Assembly: GCA_031082005.1 (NCBI GenBank)
Contig: JAVHLR010000001.1
Location: 501,251-565,250 of the forward strand
Length of the DNA: 64,000 nt
Direction of reading: 5' to 3'
DNA from: Patescibacteria group bacterium
GTDB lineage: Bacteria > Patescibacteriota > Patescibacteriia > 2-12-FULL-60-25
The position numbers and the translations under genes were made by a program. Positions 2,269 through 9,596 of this stretch are shown here, one piece after another. The notes under the pieces are model-generated. The model searched no databases, was not told where the DNA came from, and saw only the letters and a program-made list of their open reading frames with translations. How positions within the stretch are numbered: the stretch's first letter is position 1; every line of letters begins with the position of its first letter.

Positions 2269-3462
2269 GTGATGTTTATGCGGAACGCTTTGCCAAAAGA
2301 ATTTTTTTCCGGACTCGGACGTAGCATCTTCCTGATTTTCGTCGCCGCTAGTTGCGGTGGTTTGGCTGGCGGTGCCGCCGGCTTTTATGCATCGTCTTTC
2401 GATTACGGCGGAACGCTCGATCTCGAACAGCGGATCAGAGAAAGTCTAGAGTCCAGGAATGCCTCCTCGACCGTATCGGTCATCAAGGTGGAACGACCCT
2501 CGCTCTCCACTATCGTGCCATCCATTTTCTTCAAGCGCGGCGGTTCGGCTGTGGCCGGTGTTTATCGCGCGCCGGCAAACAAGGTCGCTGGTGCTGTACT
2601 TGAGGATACGGCCTTGTTGGGGCAGGCAGTAGCATTGACCTCTGATGGTTGGTTCGTGACCCCGGCTGAAACGTTGGAGGGACTGAAATCGAATGAAGCG
2701 ATATTGTGGTACGACCGAAAAGCGTATCCCGTGGAGAAAGGCATCATGGACAACTTGGACGGTGTTGCCTTCGTCAAAGTGAACGCCAGAGACGTCCCGG
2801 TCTTCTCATTCTCGCGCGTACAGGATTTGGCGATCGGCGCAGAACTCTGGAGCGAAAAAAGGCCTTCAGAATACGCGCCATCGGTCGCCACTGACCTCAA
2901 TTTCAATGCAGCACCGAACAGCCGCATGACGAGCGAAACATCGGCGCGTCGCATCGGTATGAGCGGCGTCGCCTTGGCGGGAGATATGGGAGCTCCTGTC
3001 TGGAACGACGAAGGACAATTGGTCGGCGTCGTGGAGAGCGGGGTGGGGGAGCAGTTGAGATTGATCCCCGCGTCGCTTATTGCGTCGTCATTACCCTCGT
3101 TGTTGTCTGATGGTCAGGTCAGACACGCATATCTCGGCGTCGTGACGATGGATTTGGCCAGCGCCAAAAGGCTTGACGTCGCAGAAGACGAAGCTCGTTA
3201 CGGCGCATTGATTTCCGACGATAAAAAAATAAATAGGGTGGGTGTAGCTAAGGATTCGCCGGCGGCTAAAGCAGGATTGAAGAACGGCGACGTGATTTTA
3301 CGTGTCGAACGTGATATTCTTGATGGCACGACAGACTTAGGGGAAATCCTCTCTGAATACAAGCCGGGTTCCGAAGTTACATTGCGCATTTTGCGCGAAA
3401 AGCAGGACTTGGACATCAAGGTCAGTCTTGGCTCGATCATCACAAGCGAAACTTTAAAATGA
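2269..3462 (+). CDS. HtrA/DegP-like pseudoprotease with PDZ domain
   Basis: 397 residues: an N-terminal membrane anchor (about 18-41), a chymotrypsin-fold region (about 110-275) and one C-terminal PDZ domain (about 285-390, with SPAAKAGLKNGDVILRV). The fold landmarks of DegP are recognisable, but the catalytic triad is not: the His site (VTNNHV in DegP) reads VTPAET with Glu134, and the GNSGGP serine loop reads GDMGAP with Met240 in place of Ser. Only the Asp (Asp164 in DGVAF) may survive. The protein is therefore predicted to bind rather than cut its clients, perhaps as an envelope chaperone or adaptor. GTG start chosen because it sits 8 bases from a -10 box; ATG at 2272 or 2278 is possible. 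A Wzz-like gene follows after 3 bases. Confidence 0.85.
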   Translation: MMFMRNALPKEFFSGLGRSIFLIFVAASCGGLAGGAAGFYASSFDYGGTLDLEQRIRESLESRNASSTVSVIKVERPSLSTIVPSIFFKRGGSAVAGVYRAPANKVAGAVLEDTALLGQAVALTSDGWFVTPAETLEGLKSNEAILWYDRKAYPVEKGIMDNLDGVAFVKVNARDVPVFSFSRVQDLAIGAELWSEKRPSEYAPSVATDLNFNAAPNSRMTSETSARRIGMSGVALAGDMGAPVWNDEGQLVGVVESGVGEQLRLIPASLIASSLPSLLSDGQVRHAYLGVVTMDLASAKRLDVAEDEARYGALISDDKKINRVGVAKDSPAAKAGLKNGDVILRVERDILDGTTDLGEILSEYKPGSEVTLRILREKQDLDIKVSLGSIITSETLK

Positions 3463-4333: not shown

Positions 4334-4591
4334 ATGCGCAATTTCGCGCTCGTAGTAGTTCTTGCCACATATTCCGTCCTTTCCATGGGTTGTAGCCTCT
4401 CCGCCGTCCGCACTGCGCCCTCCCCCTCGTCGACCGCGGCCGCGAAGAAGCCCGCAACTCCGGCGCAGCAGGAGTGCTTCCGGAAAACCCTTGATCAGTG
4501 TCAGAGGGAGAGGCAATCGCGCTTCGCACCGATCGTACTGTACAGCATGACTTCGTGCGAAGATCGCGCAAACTCCTGTTTCTCCAAGTAA
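4334..4591 (+). CDS. Small cysteine-paired lipoprotein
   Basis: 85 residues from the ATG after AGAGAGCTAAAA. A short positive N-terminus and hydrophobic stretch end in a lipobox (LSMG-C20), so the mature protein is a membrane-anchored lipoprotein. A Ser/Pro/Ala linker follows, then a helical region with two cysteine pairs, C48-x7-C56 and C75-x6-C82. Similar paired cysteines occur in the next three secreted proteins downstream, so this is probably the first member of a related group. Function unknown. Codon use is rich in G/C at third positions, unlike the genes before 4.1 kb. A longer in-frame start at 4271 is possible but has no good signal peptide. Confidence 0.7.
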   Translation: MRNFALVVVLATYSVLSMGCSLSAVRTAPSPSSTAAAKKPATPAQQECFRKTLDQCQRERQSRFAPIVLYSMTSCEDRANSCFSK

Positions 4592-4617
4592 TCCCGCCCT
4601 TTTCACCTCTTCAAAAC

Positions 4618-4677
4618 GGCAAGTTCACTCAAACTTGCCCGTTCCCACTGGTTGGGTTTAGATGCTTGTAAACCCAA
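4618..4677 (+). terminator. Two consecutive hairpins after the small lipoprotein gene
   Basis: GGCAAGTT/AACTTGCC (4618-4639, perfect 8-bp stem) and TTGGGTTTA/TAAACCCAA (4652-4677, perfect 9-bp stem). They lie 27 bases after the stop codon. Neither is followed directly by a T-run, so termination is inferred from position. A TTTTTTT tract occurs at about 4702. Confidence 0.45.
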
Positions 4678-4757
4678 TCGATGCCGAACGCATGTGGCTT
4701 TCATTTTTTTCGCAGTTTTACATCTTCAAGAAGATGGATTAAAGTCACAGCCCATAC

Positions 4758-4786
4758 TTGACAAAAATGACGGATTGTGATATTTT
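4758..4786 (+). promoter_or_regulatory. Sigma70-type promoter with long structured leader
   Basis: TTGACA (4758-4763), 17-bp spacer, TATTTT (4781-4786). Transcription would begin near 4793 and run through about 250 bases of leader before the gene at 5046. Confidence 0.7.
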
Positions 4787-4824
4787 CATCAGTTCATTAG
4801 AGTTTAAGAACGTCCGCGTTTTGA

Positions 4825-4917
4825 GGCCGTTCCGTAGCGATTTGGAGGTTTTCCTCCTCTTCCAAATCAATCCGGGACGGCCCCAGGACGCGAGTCCAGG
4901 GGCTTAAGCACTTCGCT
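4825..4917 (+). other. Structured 5' leader RNA (three nested or adjacent hairpins)
   Basis: The gene-free stretch 4592-5045 holds the promoter and then this region. GGCCGT (4825) pairs with ACGGCC (4877) and inside it GATTTGGA (4839) pairs with TCCAAATC (4861), making one long interrupted stem-loop. CCCCAGGAC/GTCCAGGGG follows with one A.A mismatch, then TAAGC/GCTTA. Between here and the start codon lies a further GCGCC/GGCGC stem near 4991. It could be a cis-acting leader or an independent small RNA; no known riboswitch class is recognised. Confidence 0.5.
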
Positions 4918-5045
4918 TAGGTTGAACCTTACAATTTGGATCAGAAGAAGAGTCATCCGCACGGTTGCGGAGGACTGCGGAGTTTTTGCTGGCGCCACGT
5001 GGCGCGCGTCTCAAAACGTGCGGCCACGAGCCGCGGAGGAATCCC

Positions 5046-6284
5046 ATGAAGAAGATCAGTTTCGCGTGTTTCATCTGTTTTTCGCTTCTCCTCACCGGCG
5101 CCGCGTCGGCGCAAAACCAGCCCGAAGGTGGATCGACCATCGACCCGCCGCCCGCCGCCTCGGCCCCCGCAGGTAACCCCTGTGGGACGGATGCCGCCTG
5201 CAACGCCGCCCTGGCGCAGTGCCGGACGGATCTGAACACTTCGGCGACCGCGGCCAGCAATCTGGTCACTGCGCTCGCAGCGTGTCAGGGGAACCTGAAG
5301 AAGACGGTTCCCGTGCCGCCCCCTGTCAAGCTCCCACCGCCCCCCGAGTGCTTGAATGGTGGTGTCCAGAGCGACAAGCCGGACAGCGTGGCCATCATCG
5401 TCCGTGGCAAGTGGGTCTGCGTGGCGACGGACGAAGTGTACCGCTACATCGCGGGACTTCGTCAGGACGTCAACAGGCTCCAAGGACAGGTTCCGGACTG
5501 GCAGCGCTACAAGACCTTGGTCGACAACCTTACGGTATTGCTTGGTCAGCCGGGATCGCAATTCTCCAGCCAGTACGCGAACCTCTTCGCCTGGCAGGAG
5601 TCCGCAGAGGCACGGCTGCAGCGCATCGCCGAAATCGATCGGTGGATCAACGAGTCTCTGTTGCCGTGGATGGCAATGCACGACCAGGCCATCAACACCC
5701 TGTGCCCGGCCGTTGCGTCTTGCGGAGCCACCGACTTCCAGTGCCGCTGCGAGCAGGCAGCCAAGAAGAACCAGGGCACCCGCGTCGACTTCTCGCTCGG
5801 CGCCCGCGGTCTGCTCATGCATCGGCCCAGCGCTGGTGTCGCCGGCGGGATCGAGGGATACGCGGAACTCGAAGTCCGCATCCCGAACAGCAAGGTCGGT
5901 GTCCTCGCTGACGTCGGCGTCGGCATCATCGGAGACTCCGACACCGGCACGCAGTTCACCACCTCGCAGACGATCGCAATCCGCGGATACTTCGGCGAGG
6001 AAGAGCGAACCAGCCTCGACTTCGGCCCGTCCTTCCGGCAGTACTTCTCGACCCACTCCGCTGGGTACCAAGGGGTACTCCAGGACAAGGGAATGGGGAT
6101 GGAGATCGACGGCCGGCTCCAGCTTCGGCACTGCTTCACCGCTGCTGCCTGTCTGGGGCTCGGCGGCTACCTCGGCGGCTCGCCCACCACGAACTACTTC
6201 CCGCAACCTGGGGAAGTCGCTCGTGACAAGGGCTTCACCGGGGGTGGCTTCCTCTCCGTCTCCGGCGTCGTCACCAAGTTCTGA
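5046..6284 (+). CDS. Secreted protein with beta-barrel-like C-terminal half
   Basis: 412 residues. The ATG follows a good ribosome site (GGAGGAATCCC), and the protein opens with a cleavable signal peptide (about 1-22, ending ASA-Q). After it come a Pro/Ala-rich linker, a helical segment with C52-x6-C59, a second proline-rich linker near 88-101, a helical region to about 240, and from about 255 a series of alternating amphipathic strands (RVDFSLGARGLLMH, GYAELEVRI, GVLADVGVGIIG, QTIAIRGYFG, TSLDFGPSFRQYF, GRLQLRHCFTAAACLGLGGYLGG). The last residue is Phe in GVVTKF, as in the C-terminal signal of outer-membrane beta-barrels. This suggests an outer-membrane or surface protein of diderm origin. 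G/C-rich codon use. Confidence 0.7.
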   Translation: MKKISFACFICFSLLLTGAASAQNQPEGGSTIDPPPAASAPAGNPCGTDAACNAALAQCRTDLNTSATAASNLVTALAACQGNLKKTVPVPPPVKLPPPPECLNGGVQSDKPDSVAIIVRGKWVCVATDEVYRYIAGLRQDVNRLQGQVPDWQRYKTLVDNLTVLLGQPGSQFSSQYANLFAWQESAEARLQRIAEIDRWINESLLPWMAMHDQAINTLCPAVASCGATDFQCRCEQAAKKNQGTRVDFSLGARGLLMHRPSAGVAGGIEGYAELEVRIPNSKVGVLADVGVGIIGDSDTGTQFTTSQTIAIRGYFGEEERTSLDFGPSFRQYFSTHSAGYQGVLQDKGMGMEIDGRLQLRHCFTAAACLGLGGYLGGSPTTNYFPQPGEVARDKGFTGGGFLSVSGVVTKF

Positions 6285-6317
6285 TCCTACCAACCGACCC
6301 ACAACGGGTCACTCACC

Positions 6318-6349
6318 AAGCTCGCGAGACATCCTCTGTCTCCGAGCTT
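6318..6349 (+). other. Long hairpin between secreted-protein genes
   Basis: AAGCTCG (6318) pairs with CGAGCTT (6343), with an inner GAGACA/TGTCTC stem, an almost perfect 13-bp stem-loop. It lies 33 bases after a stop codon and could end transcription or stabilise the mRNA end; no T-run follows. The rest of 6285-6450 contains another G/C-rich foldable stretch (6391-6426). Confidence 0.5.
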
Positions 6350-6450
6350 CACACGAGATGGTTTCACCTGAAGCCGTTTCATGTGAGCGCTGGTCCCACC
6401 CATCCGGGGTGCTGGACGAGCGCACGGTCTTTCACAAAAGGAGAATGCTA

Positions 6451-6870
6451 ATGCATTCGAGATTCACACTGTTTGTGTTGGTGCTGTTCGTGTTGGCTCT
6501 CGGTGCATGCAAGAAGGATCCGCCTCCCGCACCGCCCCCGCCTCCCGCACCGCAGCCCTGCTGCAGCGTGCAGTGCTACGAGGACGTGCGGACGTGCAAG
6601 AGCACGATCGAGACGACGCTGAACAACATCGAGAAGATGGCGTCGCTCGTCAAGGCGAGATGCACCGAAGCGTGCCCCGGAAGAACCTGCGAGCTCCTCA
6701 AGGAAGCCGAAGGAATCCGCCGCCAGACGAGGACGCTAGGACTCCAGGCGTGCGACTGCAAGGCCGACACCGCGAGGTGTGAAGCCCTGCGAAAGCAAGC
6801 GCTGGACGTTCAGGATGAGATGAGCCGCCTTGTGAAGGCGTGCGCGGAGGCCAACTGTGGCCGCCCGTAG
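6451..6870 (+). CDS. Cysteine-rich helical lipoprotein
   Basis: 139 residues. The ATG at 6451 is 7 bases from AAAAGGAGA; an in-frame ATG at 6445 is too close to it. The signal sequence ends in a lipobox (LALGA-C20). A proline-rich linker (about 24-36) is followed by an alpha-helical domain containing 12 cysteines, including C42-x6-C49 and C103-x6-C110, with CTEAC at 71-75 between. The spacing suggests helices tied by disulfide bonds outside the cytoplasm. Function unknown. It overlaps the next lipoprotein gene by 14 bases, so the two are translated together. G/C-rich codons as in its neighbours. Confidence 0.75.
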   Translation: MHSRFTLFVLVLFVLALGACKKDPPPAPPPPPAPQPCCSVQCYEDVRTCKSTIETTLNNIEKMASLVKARCTEACPGRTCELLKEAEGIRRQTRTLGLQACDCKADTARCEALRKQALDVQDEMSRLVKACAEANCGRP

Positions 6871-7285
6871 CGCATTCGCGACGCTCATCGCCTCGATCAT
6901 CGTTCTGCCTGCCGCGTGTGTCTGTAACGGCACACCGAGCAAGCCGGACGCCACCCCGCCCGCTGCATCGTCGAGCGAGGAAGCGGAAACCCCGCCTCCT
7001 GCGAAAGACGCGTGTGGCAAGTCGCGCGACGTCTGCAAGCAGACGGTCGGAAGCGCGTCCCGCACCTATATCATGGCCAAGTCCACGCAGGCAATCTGCG
7101 GGGATGCGGCTGACGCTGGTGTCGCGGTTCATCCGCATGCCAGTGACACGGCCAAGGTCGAGAAGTTCGGCCAAGGCGAATGTGAGTCGGAATTGGCGGA
7201 GTGCGAGAAGATCCGCTCCACCGTGGTCAAGGATATGGCCGACGCCCTCGACATGATGGGCAAGGCCTGCGGATACTCGAAGTAG
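6857..7285 (+). CDS. Cysteine-paired lipoprotein, relative of the preceding one
   Basis: 142 residues from a GTG start inside the end of the previous gene, with GGAGG (6847-6850 region) just upstream. Signal sequence and lipobox end in LPAA-C21. A Pro/Ser/Glu/Ala linker (about 26-50) leads into a helical domain with twin pairs C53-x6-C60 and C109-x6-C116 plus C81 and C138. The layout (lipobox, proline linker, helix with C-x6-C, second helix with C-x6-C) repeats that of the proteins starting at 4334 and 6451, which suggests one divergent family. No enzymatic motif. Probably exported and anchored in a membrane. Confidence 0.72.
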   Translation: MAARSAFATLIASIIVLPAACVCNGTPSKPDATPPAASSSEEAETPPPAKDACGKSRDVCKQTVGSASRTYIMAKSTQAICGDAADAGVAVHPHASDTAKVEKFGQGECESELAECEKIRSTVVKDMADALDMMGKACGYSK

Positions 7286-7321
7286 CAAACAACCCGCACA
7301 AGAGCGGGGGAGAGGTTTCAG

Positions 7322-8209
7322 ATGAACAAGCAACTCATGACTCTGGTTTTCGCGGTTCTCGGCATCATTGGTCTGATTGGTTGCGGCGACAACGAGCCCA
7401 AGCGCGCAAGCTCGGACGGCACGACGGTCCCTGCGGACCAGTGCCCAGCGCTCGGATCGGCCTCGGCTGCGGAAGGCGCCAAGTGCGCAGGAAACGTCGT
7501 GCATTGTGGCTTCTGGGTCCCGGCCAATTCGTCGGCCGCCTACGCCGCGTGCCAGGACAACAGTCAGCCCCCGTCGACCTGCAATGCGGGCCAGTCCTGC
7601 TCGACACCCGGCGTCGCCTGCACGGATAGCAGCGGAGTGGTGCTGGAGTGCTACTGCGGCATGTGGGCCAACGCGCTCATGAAGTCGCAGATCGACTGCA
7701 GCCCCTCCAACCCCAACCCGGGAACCGGCGGTAGCGGCGGATCTGGCGGATCGAGCGGTGGTACGGGCGGCAGCGGAAGCGGTGGATCGTACGGGTCCCC
7801 GGCGAGCGGATACGACACCTTCCACATCGAAGTGCTCGCCTCGGCGCAGCACATCTACTGCGAAGGAGCGAGCACCGAGCCGAGCTTCGGCGACGACGTC
7901 AACGTGAAGTTCTTCGAGTACTGGCACAGCTTCGGCTGTGACAGTTTCGACGGGAGCTTCTCCTGCGACATCTTCGTCCCCAGCAATGCTGCCCTCCGGT
8001 TCCAGTGCTACATGCAGAATCCTGATCCCGAACCCGGGGATCAGATCCGCTACACCTGTGCCAACCCGACGCAGCTGCTGCAGGGCGAGAGTTTCACCGT
8101 CAGCCGCAACGGCACGGTGGTCAGCACTGATCTCGCCGCCAACCTGGCACCCGAGGCCAACCCGCAGTCTTCATACAACTGCGTGAACCTCGGTTCCGCC
8201 GCGCAGTAG
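7322..8209 (+). CDS. Lipoprotein with Gly/Ser linker
   Basis: 295 residues; ATG follows GGGGAGAGG. The lipobox is LIG-C21, and the mature protein begins CGDNEP, the same six residues as the lipoprotein starting at 8616. A cysteine-rich N-terminal domain (about 38-125, 13 cysteines) is followed by a Gly/Ser linker (about 130-160, GGSGG repeats) and a C-terminal domain (about 163-295) with three further cysteine-rich segments. Gly/Ser linkers and this type of cysteine-rich lipoprotein are common in Myxococcota. No known domain recognised in either half. A hairpin terminator follows at 8236. Confidence 0.75.
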   Translation: MNKQLMTLVFAVLGIIGLIGCGDNEPKRASSDGTTVPADQCPALGSASAAEGAKCAGNVVHCGFWVPANSSAAYAACQDNSQPPSTCNAGQSCSTPGVACTDSSGVVLECYCGMWANALMKSQIDCSPSNPNPGTGGSGGSGGSSGGTGGSGSGGSYGSPASGYDTFHIEVLASAQHIYCEGASTEPSFGDDVNVKFFEYWHSFGCDSFDGSFSCDIFVPSNAALRFQCYMQNPDPEPGDQIRYTCANPTQLLQGESFTVSRNGTVVSTDLAANLAPEANPQSSYNCVNLGSAAQ

Positions 8210-8615: not shown

Positions 8616-9596
8616 ATGAACCGGAGTTCATTCGTAGCGTTTCTGACGGTATGTTTCGCACTCGTCGCATGCGGCGACAACGAGCCGATGGTCAATCCTG
8701 ACTTTGTCGGTGGAGCCGCAACCGGAGGAAGCGGTGCTGTCGGCGGTTCAGGCGGCGTAGCCGGAACCGGCGGAGTTGCCGGCCAGGGTGGATCTTCCGC
8801 TTCTGGCGGAACCGGCGGATCGTCTGGAGACGGAGGATCGGCAGGCGATGGCGGAGCTGGCGGTGATGGTGGCTCTGCCGCAACGGGCGGCAGTGGTGCT
8901 GTCGGAGGCTCTGGCGGAACCGGCGGATCGTCTGGAGGGGGCTCGGGTGGAAGTCCGCCCGTCTGCGATCCGAATGACCCGCCGATCGAGTGCGCCATGA
9001 CCACGACCTGCAACGGGCTTGCAGCCTGTCTACCCGACGGTTCAGCCCACGGCGAATGCACTCCACCCGCCGAAGTCTGCAACGACGGTGTGGACAACAA
9101 CTGCGACGGCGTGGCAGACGAAGGGTGCAGTACCAGCGTAGGCTGCGCCAATCAGGTTGGTCGCATCATTCGCTACGTCTTCACGACGCCGCAAAGCGCG
9201 GTGTACGCGAACATCACGCTGTTTGACGAGGCGCTCTTCGCCAACAACAGCCCGATGCCACGTCCCAACCCCTGTGGCGGATCCCAGAGCGACCAGTATT
9301 ACGCCTGGGGAACCGGCTGGGACTGTGGATGCAACGAGACGTGCCACGCCACCTACGATAACTCGGTCGACTGCACGGTTCACCGTCCGCTCGGCGCCAA
9401 GTTGCGCATCAACATCCAGATGTTCAGCATGGGTAACCCCATGACGAGCTCCTGGGCCTGCACCGACATCGTCGGCGCGCTCCAGAACGGCGCGCTCCAG
9501 ATCTACGTCGACGGCGTGCAGGTCGGCTACTCGTTCATCCCTGACCCGGACGCGGCCTACCCCGACCCCAACTGCAAGGTTGTGGTCCAGATCTAG
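8616..9596 (+). CDS. Lipoprotein with Gly/Ser repeats and MopE-type metal-binding motif
   Basis: 326 residues; ATG follows AAGGAGATACTG. The lipobox ends ALVA-C20 and the mature protein starts CGDNEP. Residues about 30-115 are a low-complexity Gly/Ser/Ala stretch built from GGSGG and GAVGGSGG units. Residues 155-172 hold CNDGVDNNCDGVADEGC, the Cys/Asp/Asn-rich calcium- or copper-binding motif of MopE-like proteins (PF11617). The C-terminal domain (about 175-326) contains further cysteines and aromatic residues and is not recognised. The combination is typical of secreted or surface lipoproteins of Myxococcota. Monocistronic, with its own leader and a terminator at 9623. Confidence 0.8.
   Translation: MNRSSFVAFLTVCFALVACGDNEPMVNPDFVGGAATGGSGAVGGSGGVAGTGGVAGQGGSSASGGTGGSSGDGGSAGDGGAGGDGGSAATGGSGAVGGSGGTGGSSGGGSGGSPPVCDPNDPPIECAMTTTCNGLAACLPDGSAHGECTPPAEVCNDGVDNNCDGVADEGCSTSVGCANQVGRIIRYVFTTPQSAVYANITLFDEALFANNSPMPRPNPCGGSQSDQYYAWGTGWDCGCNETCHATYDNSVDCTVHRPLGAKLRINIQMFSMGNPMTSSWACTDIVGALQNGALQIYVDGVQVGYSFIPDPDAAYPDPNCKVVVQI

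Follow-up and report, generated by a model that had tools for sequence, protein, structure and literature searches.

A candidate cell-surface island joining heptad-spaced cysteine modules to a predicted β-barrel in Candidatus Uhrbacteria

Genes and cysteine modules at the locus

We analysed a 64,000-nucleotide stretch of DNA from a Patescibacteria group bacterium (assembly GCA_031082005.1, contig JAVHLR010000001.1, positions 501,251 to 565,250), hereafter the window, which is part of contig C3 of a 1.31 Mb source genome with a completeness rating of 100%. Near its start lie four consecutive genes, p1 to p4, whose exported products carry regularly spaced cysteines and which, with two neighbours, p5 and p6, may form a co-inherited cell-surface island. 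The lineage is Candidatus Uhrbacteria, whose members are presumed to be attached to other bacteria and to lack an outer membrane. The genes and their modules (lengths in amino acids, aa) are as follows.

4334..4591, + strand: p1, an 85-aa lipoprotein with lipobox LSMGC and C48-x7-C56-x18-C75-x6-C82
5046..6284, + strand: p2, a 412-aa exported protein with a C-terminal Phe
5181..5285, + strand: N-terminal cysteine module of p2, residues 46-80, C46-x5-C52-x6-C59-x20-C80
6451..6870, + strand: p3, a 139-aa lipoprotein (from the ATG of MHSR) with lipobox LALGAC, a poly-Pro linker, two modules and six extra cysteines
6574..6663, + strand: p3 module 1, C42-C49-C71 (from conservation and register)
6757..6843, + strand: p3 module 2, C103-C110-C131 (from conservation and register)
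6857..7285, + strand: p4, a 142-aa lipoprotein (GTG start) with lipobox LPAAC and two modules, a paralogue of p3

A sequence-only reading of this DNA had taken p1 to p4 for one group of secreted proteins, three of them lipoproteins, in which C-x6-C pairs staple an antiparallel helical hairpin of no named family. The four open reading frames (ORFs) and all of the pairs it quoted are present (C48-x7-C56 and C75-x6-C82 in p1, C52-x6-C59 in p2, C42-x6-C49 and C103-x6-C110 in p3, C53-x6-C60 and C109-x6-C116 in p4), as are the lipoboxes of p1, p3 and p4, each of which has a signal peptide with a lipobox cysteine; the source genome encodes LspA (PF01252). The signal peptide of p2 (..AASA-Q) is ordinary and not of the lipobox type, and p4 begins within p3, the two genes overlapping by 14 bp.

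The pairs are real, but in p2 to p4 the unit is longer, since each helical pair is followed by a third cysteine (C80 in p2, C71 and C131 in p3, C81 and C138 in p4), giving C-x6-C-x20/21-C at 52/59/80 in p2, 42/49/71 and 103/110/131 in p3, and 53/60/81 and 109/116/138 in p4, while p1 is spaced differently. On a single helix, a spacing of seven puts two cysteines on the same face, about 10 Angstrom from each other. The three cysteines of the unit stand at heptad-equivalent positions (0, 7 and 28) along one side of a long helix, and the separations between cysteines show peaks at 7, 21, 28 and 56. When the four mature chains were shuffled 20,000 times, the seven CX6C motifs observed were reached in 0.125% of shuffles (mean 1.8), and the five CX6CX20-21C motifs, a pattern chosen post hoc, in 0/20,000 (mean 0.18). 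The six module cysteines are also the sole invariant residues in seven p3/p4 relatives. The spacings are genuine: they exceed chance and they are conserved, and conservation is a stronger test of them than the shuffles.

By sequence comparison p3 and p4 are paralogues, matching each other by BLASTP (E 4e-4) and hhalign (probability 94%, E 1.5e-7), and the expectation that all four proteins would match one another held for this pair only. The p2 module aligned to p3/p4 module 1 with E 5e-4 and a probability of 31%, a relationship that is suggestive only; p1 had no BLASTP match to p3 and reached the p3/p4 family profile weakly (E 6e-4, probability 29%), through its signal peptide and linker. Modules 1 and 2 show no significant similarity beyond their spacing. 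In agreement with the sequence-only reading, Pfam and NCBIfam searches found no family fitting p1-p5. When the p3/p4 and p2 profiles were run against Protein Data Bank sequences, no match rose above chance level, and no sequence relative of p1-p4 was found there; a plasmid gene collection held no match for p2 or p5, and a phage gene collection none for p4.

Helix packing in p3, p4 and p1

An AlphaFold2 (AF2) model of p4, built on a seven-sequence alignment, contains helices at residues 50-81, 95-102 and 109-138, and the two long ones, with a predicted local distance difference test score (pLDDT) of 89-95, carry the modules.

7004..7099, + strand: p4 helix 1, residues 50-81, with C53, C60 and C81 (AF2, pLDDT 89-95 over most of its length)
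7181..7270, + strand: p4 helix 3, residues 109-138, with C109, C116 and C138 (AF2, pLDDT 89-95)

The modules are thus helical in the model, with high confidence, and a third helix lies between the long ones. On both long helices the cysteine stripe coincides with the hydrophobic face, its direction differing by 20-30 degrees or less from that of the hydrophobic moment. With a parallel register, 3/3 cysteines find partners in each of the seven p3/p4 sequences; with an antiparallel one, 2/3 do so and two of the six stay free. We therefore prefer parallel packing, because it pairs all six cysteines where antiparallel packing pairs at most four. Extra cysteines appear jointly at the N-terminal ends of both modules (C37/C38 with C101 in p3; C40 with C99 in L032), as would be expected of ends that lie side by side. 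Alignments of the p4 model to 8oyy (98/98 residues over 115 chain residues) and to 1ls4, at Z ~5-6, pass through the intervening helix and so fit, indirectly, an up-down-up path.

Our best model for p3 and p4, likelier than an antiparallel hairpin, is a pair of parallel long helices closed by a three-rung disulfide zipper, with helix direction and connectivity inferred from the register. Each protein would have a lipid anchor, then a Pro-rich stalk and, at its end, a domain of three helices running up-down-up; the rungs in p4 would be C53-C109, C60-C116 and C81-C138, and p3 would have further cysteines at both ends. Such a C-x6-C-x20-C zipper, which we found in no curated family, would make the stapling of parallel helices a matter of one simple heptad rule.

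The hairpin of the sequence-only reading, a CHCH-like fold of new spacing with facing C-x6-C pairs, seems improbable to us for all four proteins, and p1 is the one that fits it, at most, by sequence geometry. There the two pairs can nest (48+82=130, 56+75=131) about a turn at Pro66, and an orthologue in G003 (L010 10008-10241, 51% identical) retains all of the cysteines and Pro66, so that p1 is likely to be a small antiparallel helical hairpin with nested disulfides. AF2 also models the p2 module as a pair of short helices (H50-65, H70-86), at low confidence. In p3 and p4, on the other hand, the copies sit on two separate helices of ~30 residues with a third between them, an antiparallel register leaves two invariant cysteines without partners, and the homology that would carry a hairpin across the group holds for p3 and p4 only.

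Equally doubtful, in our view, is that the disulfides join different chains, making parallel coiled-coil dimers (p2-p2, p3-p4 or p2-p3) and a cross-linked surface mesh. Cysteines at 0, 7 and 28 share one heptad position and would be ideal staples for a parallel coiled coil, the single module of p2 has no internal partner, and the module of the L012 relative is longer by about one heptad; yet p3 and p4 always have exactly two modules, which is enough for pairing within one chain.

A predicted β-barrel in p2

The order of parts in p2 is signal peptide, cysteine module, Pro-rich linker, helical middle and C-terminal barrel. C46, C52, C59, C80, C102 and C125 are invariant in six p2 relatives, and the module spacing is x5-x6-x20 in four of them, x5-x6-x16 in one and x6-x7-x27 in one. 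A second C-x5-C-x6-C (C220, C226, C233; window 5703-5744) stands just before the barrel and is common only to the G003 orthologue.

5781..6278, + strand: transmembrane-type β-barrel of p2, residues 246-411, eight long strands (AF2, Foldseek, VIA-align, amphipathicity)

In the AF2 model of p2, the N-terminal half is helical and residues 246-411 form eight long strands. The best Foldseek matches were OmpA, OmpW, Ail, NspA and OmpX (E ~1e-6 to 1e-4), and VIA-align superposed the barrel on NspA with Z 17.2 and a root-mean-square deviation (rmsd) of 2.6 over 148 aligned residues, and on OmpA with Z 15-16. Averaged over seven relatives, all 8/8 strands alternate hydrophobic-out and polar-in, with charged inner residues, and 6/7 relatives end in F or Y. 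The C-terminal half of p2 is predicted to be an eight-stranded outer-membrane-type β-barrel.

A soluble barrel, from which no membrane inference would follow, is a less likely reading than either of those set out above for the cysteines. PsbO and other soluble barrels do appear lower in the fold list (Z about 9-11), p2 has no match to a Pfam or NCBIfam outer-membrane protein family, and Omp85/BamA (PF01103) was found in 0/41 genomes of the family, the control being found in 7/14, the expected diderms. Against this, the best 15 VIA-align rows are membrane barrels throughout (Z 14-17), and neither the alternation and charged interior of every strand nor the C-terminal aromatic residue is what a soluble barrel would lead us to expect.

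The route by which the predicted barrel would be inserted is puzzling because no BamA/Omp85 was found in the family genomes. The prevailing view of uncultivated Patescibacteria is that they are monoderms without outer-membrane proteins (PMC7906910, PMC12102498): cryogenic transmission electron microscopy of groundwater cells resembling the candidate phyla radiation, on Gram-negative hosts, showed small cells without an outer membrane (PMC7906910), and Patescibacteria have a monoderm-type type IV secretion system (PMC12102498). We give little credence to a two-cell rivet, in which the barrel would be handed to a Gram-negative host and inserted in its outer membrane by the host's β-barrel assembly machinery while the cysteine-helix stalk engages disulfide-zipped p3/p4 on the epibiont.

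Conservation and setting of the island

Two further lipoprotein genes complete the island.

7322..8209, + strand: p5, a Cys- and GGSGG-rich lipoprotein, a conserved island partner
8616..9596, + strand: p6, a GGSGG-rich lipoprotein with a MopE-type motif, the last island gene before holB

Scanning contigs with p5 as the query, we found that the relatives sharing the island include the Candidatus Uhrbacteria metagenome-assembled genomes (MAGs) L031 (CAIKNB01) and L032 (JACRQE01); the closest relative is L029 (JAJYXM01). The slot, from a Wzz-like gene through the island to holB, is the same in G000-G003 and G011. In G010, p2 follows the Wzz-like gene, and in G013 a reverse-strand p2 relative, cut off at the contig end, does so. 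The island's gene order (p4-like, p5, p6, holB and a BNR lipoprotein) also appears on a contig of 5.5 kb, L030 (1-5463), which is assigned to an Alphaproteobacteria MAG and is most likely misbinned.

The p3/p4 family was found by profile search in 4/41 family genomes, all within one genus, with no credible additional genome among 381 of the class; a match in G247 (E 5.6e-4) was rejected as a low-complexity reverse-strand frame without a secreted ORF. Full-length p5 occurs in 5/41 family genomes, and the p2 profile matches 8/41, two of them weakly, both of which hold a p2-like frame on inspection. The p2 barrel profile matched 1/380 genomes sampled across the phylum, which is the source genome itself. 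Conservation of the island extends over one genus and, in part, over the family.

G014 encodes a distant p2-like protein (L055 1474-2901, minus strand) with a Cys helix, Pro-rich linker, coiled coil and barrel, the barrel having a weak PF13505 match (18.7 bits, below the cut-off); a lipoprotein with several MopE motifs follows. Islands of this type may therefore occur more widely in the family than the profiles suggest. A PF13505 match in G043, a genome bin of the Uhrbacteria family (L054 84-656, minus strand), was set aside as probable Bacteroidota contamination, a generic porin beside a response regulator, judged from its ORFs.

GC content at third codon positions (GC3) is 0.78-0.81 in p2-p5 (window 5046-8209), compared with a mean of 0.61 (maximum 0.73) in 48 other genes, and G003, G001 and G011, for all their divergence, show this contrast again, as does G002 more weakly. 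High expression was ruled out as the source of the GC-rich codons: ribosomal genes have a GC3 of only 0.59-0.69, and the p2-p5 values are therefore not a ribosomal-type expression bias. One possibility is that p2-p5 came from, or were repeatedly exchanged with, a GC-rich donor.

Adjoining the Wzz-like gene, and conserved in relatives, is an HtrA/DegP-like protein with a PDZ domain (window 2269-3462). It is apparently a pseudoprotease, because the catalytic motifs are lost: the serine motif reads GDMGAPV rather than GNSGGP, and the His motif is also missing.

Disulfide chemistry and a proposed role

The source genome encodes a VKOR-DsbA fusion, and VKOR is present in 32/41 family genomes; this fusion would form the disulfides extracellularly. 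Reduced cysteines lining a metal-binding (copper or zinc) helical bundle, as in the copper storage proteins (Csp), are very unlikely here: the cysteine stripes do lie on a buried helix face, p3 has 12 module-region cysteines and the MopE motif of p6 would suit a metal theme, but the proteins leave the cytoplasm by Sec/lipoprotein export in a genome with an oxidase, their cysteines are few (exactly six in several members), and they have no conserved His or Met partner.

Building on the sequences, their conservation and synteny, the presence of the oxidase and the helical and barrel topologies of the models, we hold with moderate confidence, applied jointly to the whole explanation, that p1-p6 form an island of cell-surface genes inherited together within one Uhrbacteria lineage, with a parallel three-rung zipper in p3/p4, a hairpin in p1 and a barrel in p2. 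In p2, a related-looking cysteine helix would lead through a Pro-rich linker and a helical stalk to the outer-membrane-type barrel, which would sit in a membrane at the interface. The role we infer is that of a rigid, oxidation-stabilised contact or tether layer of an epibiotic cell facing its host. Several results weigh against this explanation: the p4 fold search returned generic helical bundles only, the best hit reaching Z 7.0 with an rmsd of 7.8, the alignments have little depth (7 and 4 sequences), the p2 model has a predicted template modelling score of 0.43 with its module as a low-confidence hairpin, and no Omp85 was found in the family genomes. The structural part of the explanation is drawn from predicted models and small alignments.

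The island offers named candidates for the contact surface of an uncultivated epibiont. An outer-membrane-type barrel is unexpected in a lineage presumed to be monoderm and to lack outer-membrane proteins, and the putative disulfide-zippered lipoproteins encoded with it are unusual; as modelled, p2 links cysteine modules to a barrel in a lineage expected to have no place for one, which raises the question of where a β-barrel goes in a cell without BamA. Our literature search, outside which most subscription journals lay, found no published report of β-barrels or lipoproteins in Uhrbacteria.

Comparison with known systems

Proteins of the twin CX9C (CHCH) and twin CX3C (small Tim) types resemble those described here in being small and helical with paired cysteines, and they have nested disulfides of the kind that p1 may form. 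CX6C occurs in eukaryotes too, in NDUFB10 (CX6C/CX11C). The nine-residue spacing of CHCH proteins is not found here, the spacings being 7 and 6 in p1 and 6 and 20/21 in p2-p4, and p2-p4 differ further in carrying C-x6-C-x20/21-C on one long helix. CHCH proteins are oxidised by Mia40, whereas p1, p3 and p4 are bacterial lipoproteins with VKOR-DsbA as the proposed oxidant. The nested disulfides of CHCHD1 (Cys45-Cys76 and Cys55-Cys66; PMC12114033) are mirrored by the putative 48-82 and 56-75 pairs of p1.

With the OmpA, NspA and OmpW barrels, p2 shares strand number, alternation, a C-terminal aromatic residue, a signal peptide and a structural match, but it differs in having no Pfam outer-membrane protein match, a long stretch of cysteine module and stalk preceding the barrel, and a host lineage that is thought monoderm and has no detectable Omp85. 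Csps form four-helix bundles that bind large amounts of Cu(I) (PMC7558416), and their cysteines likewise line the bundle helices; p3 and p4 differ in having fewer cysteines, in heptad rather than Csp spacing, in their lipid anchor and in the disulfide-making enzyme of their genome. Finally, p6 resembles the MopE-motif, GGSGG-rich lipoproteins of Myxococcota: its MopE motif shares 42% identity across 71 aa with a MopE-related protein of Sandaracinus, a match confined to the motif, and low-complexity GGSGG linkers are shared with both p5 and p6.

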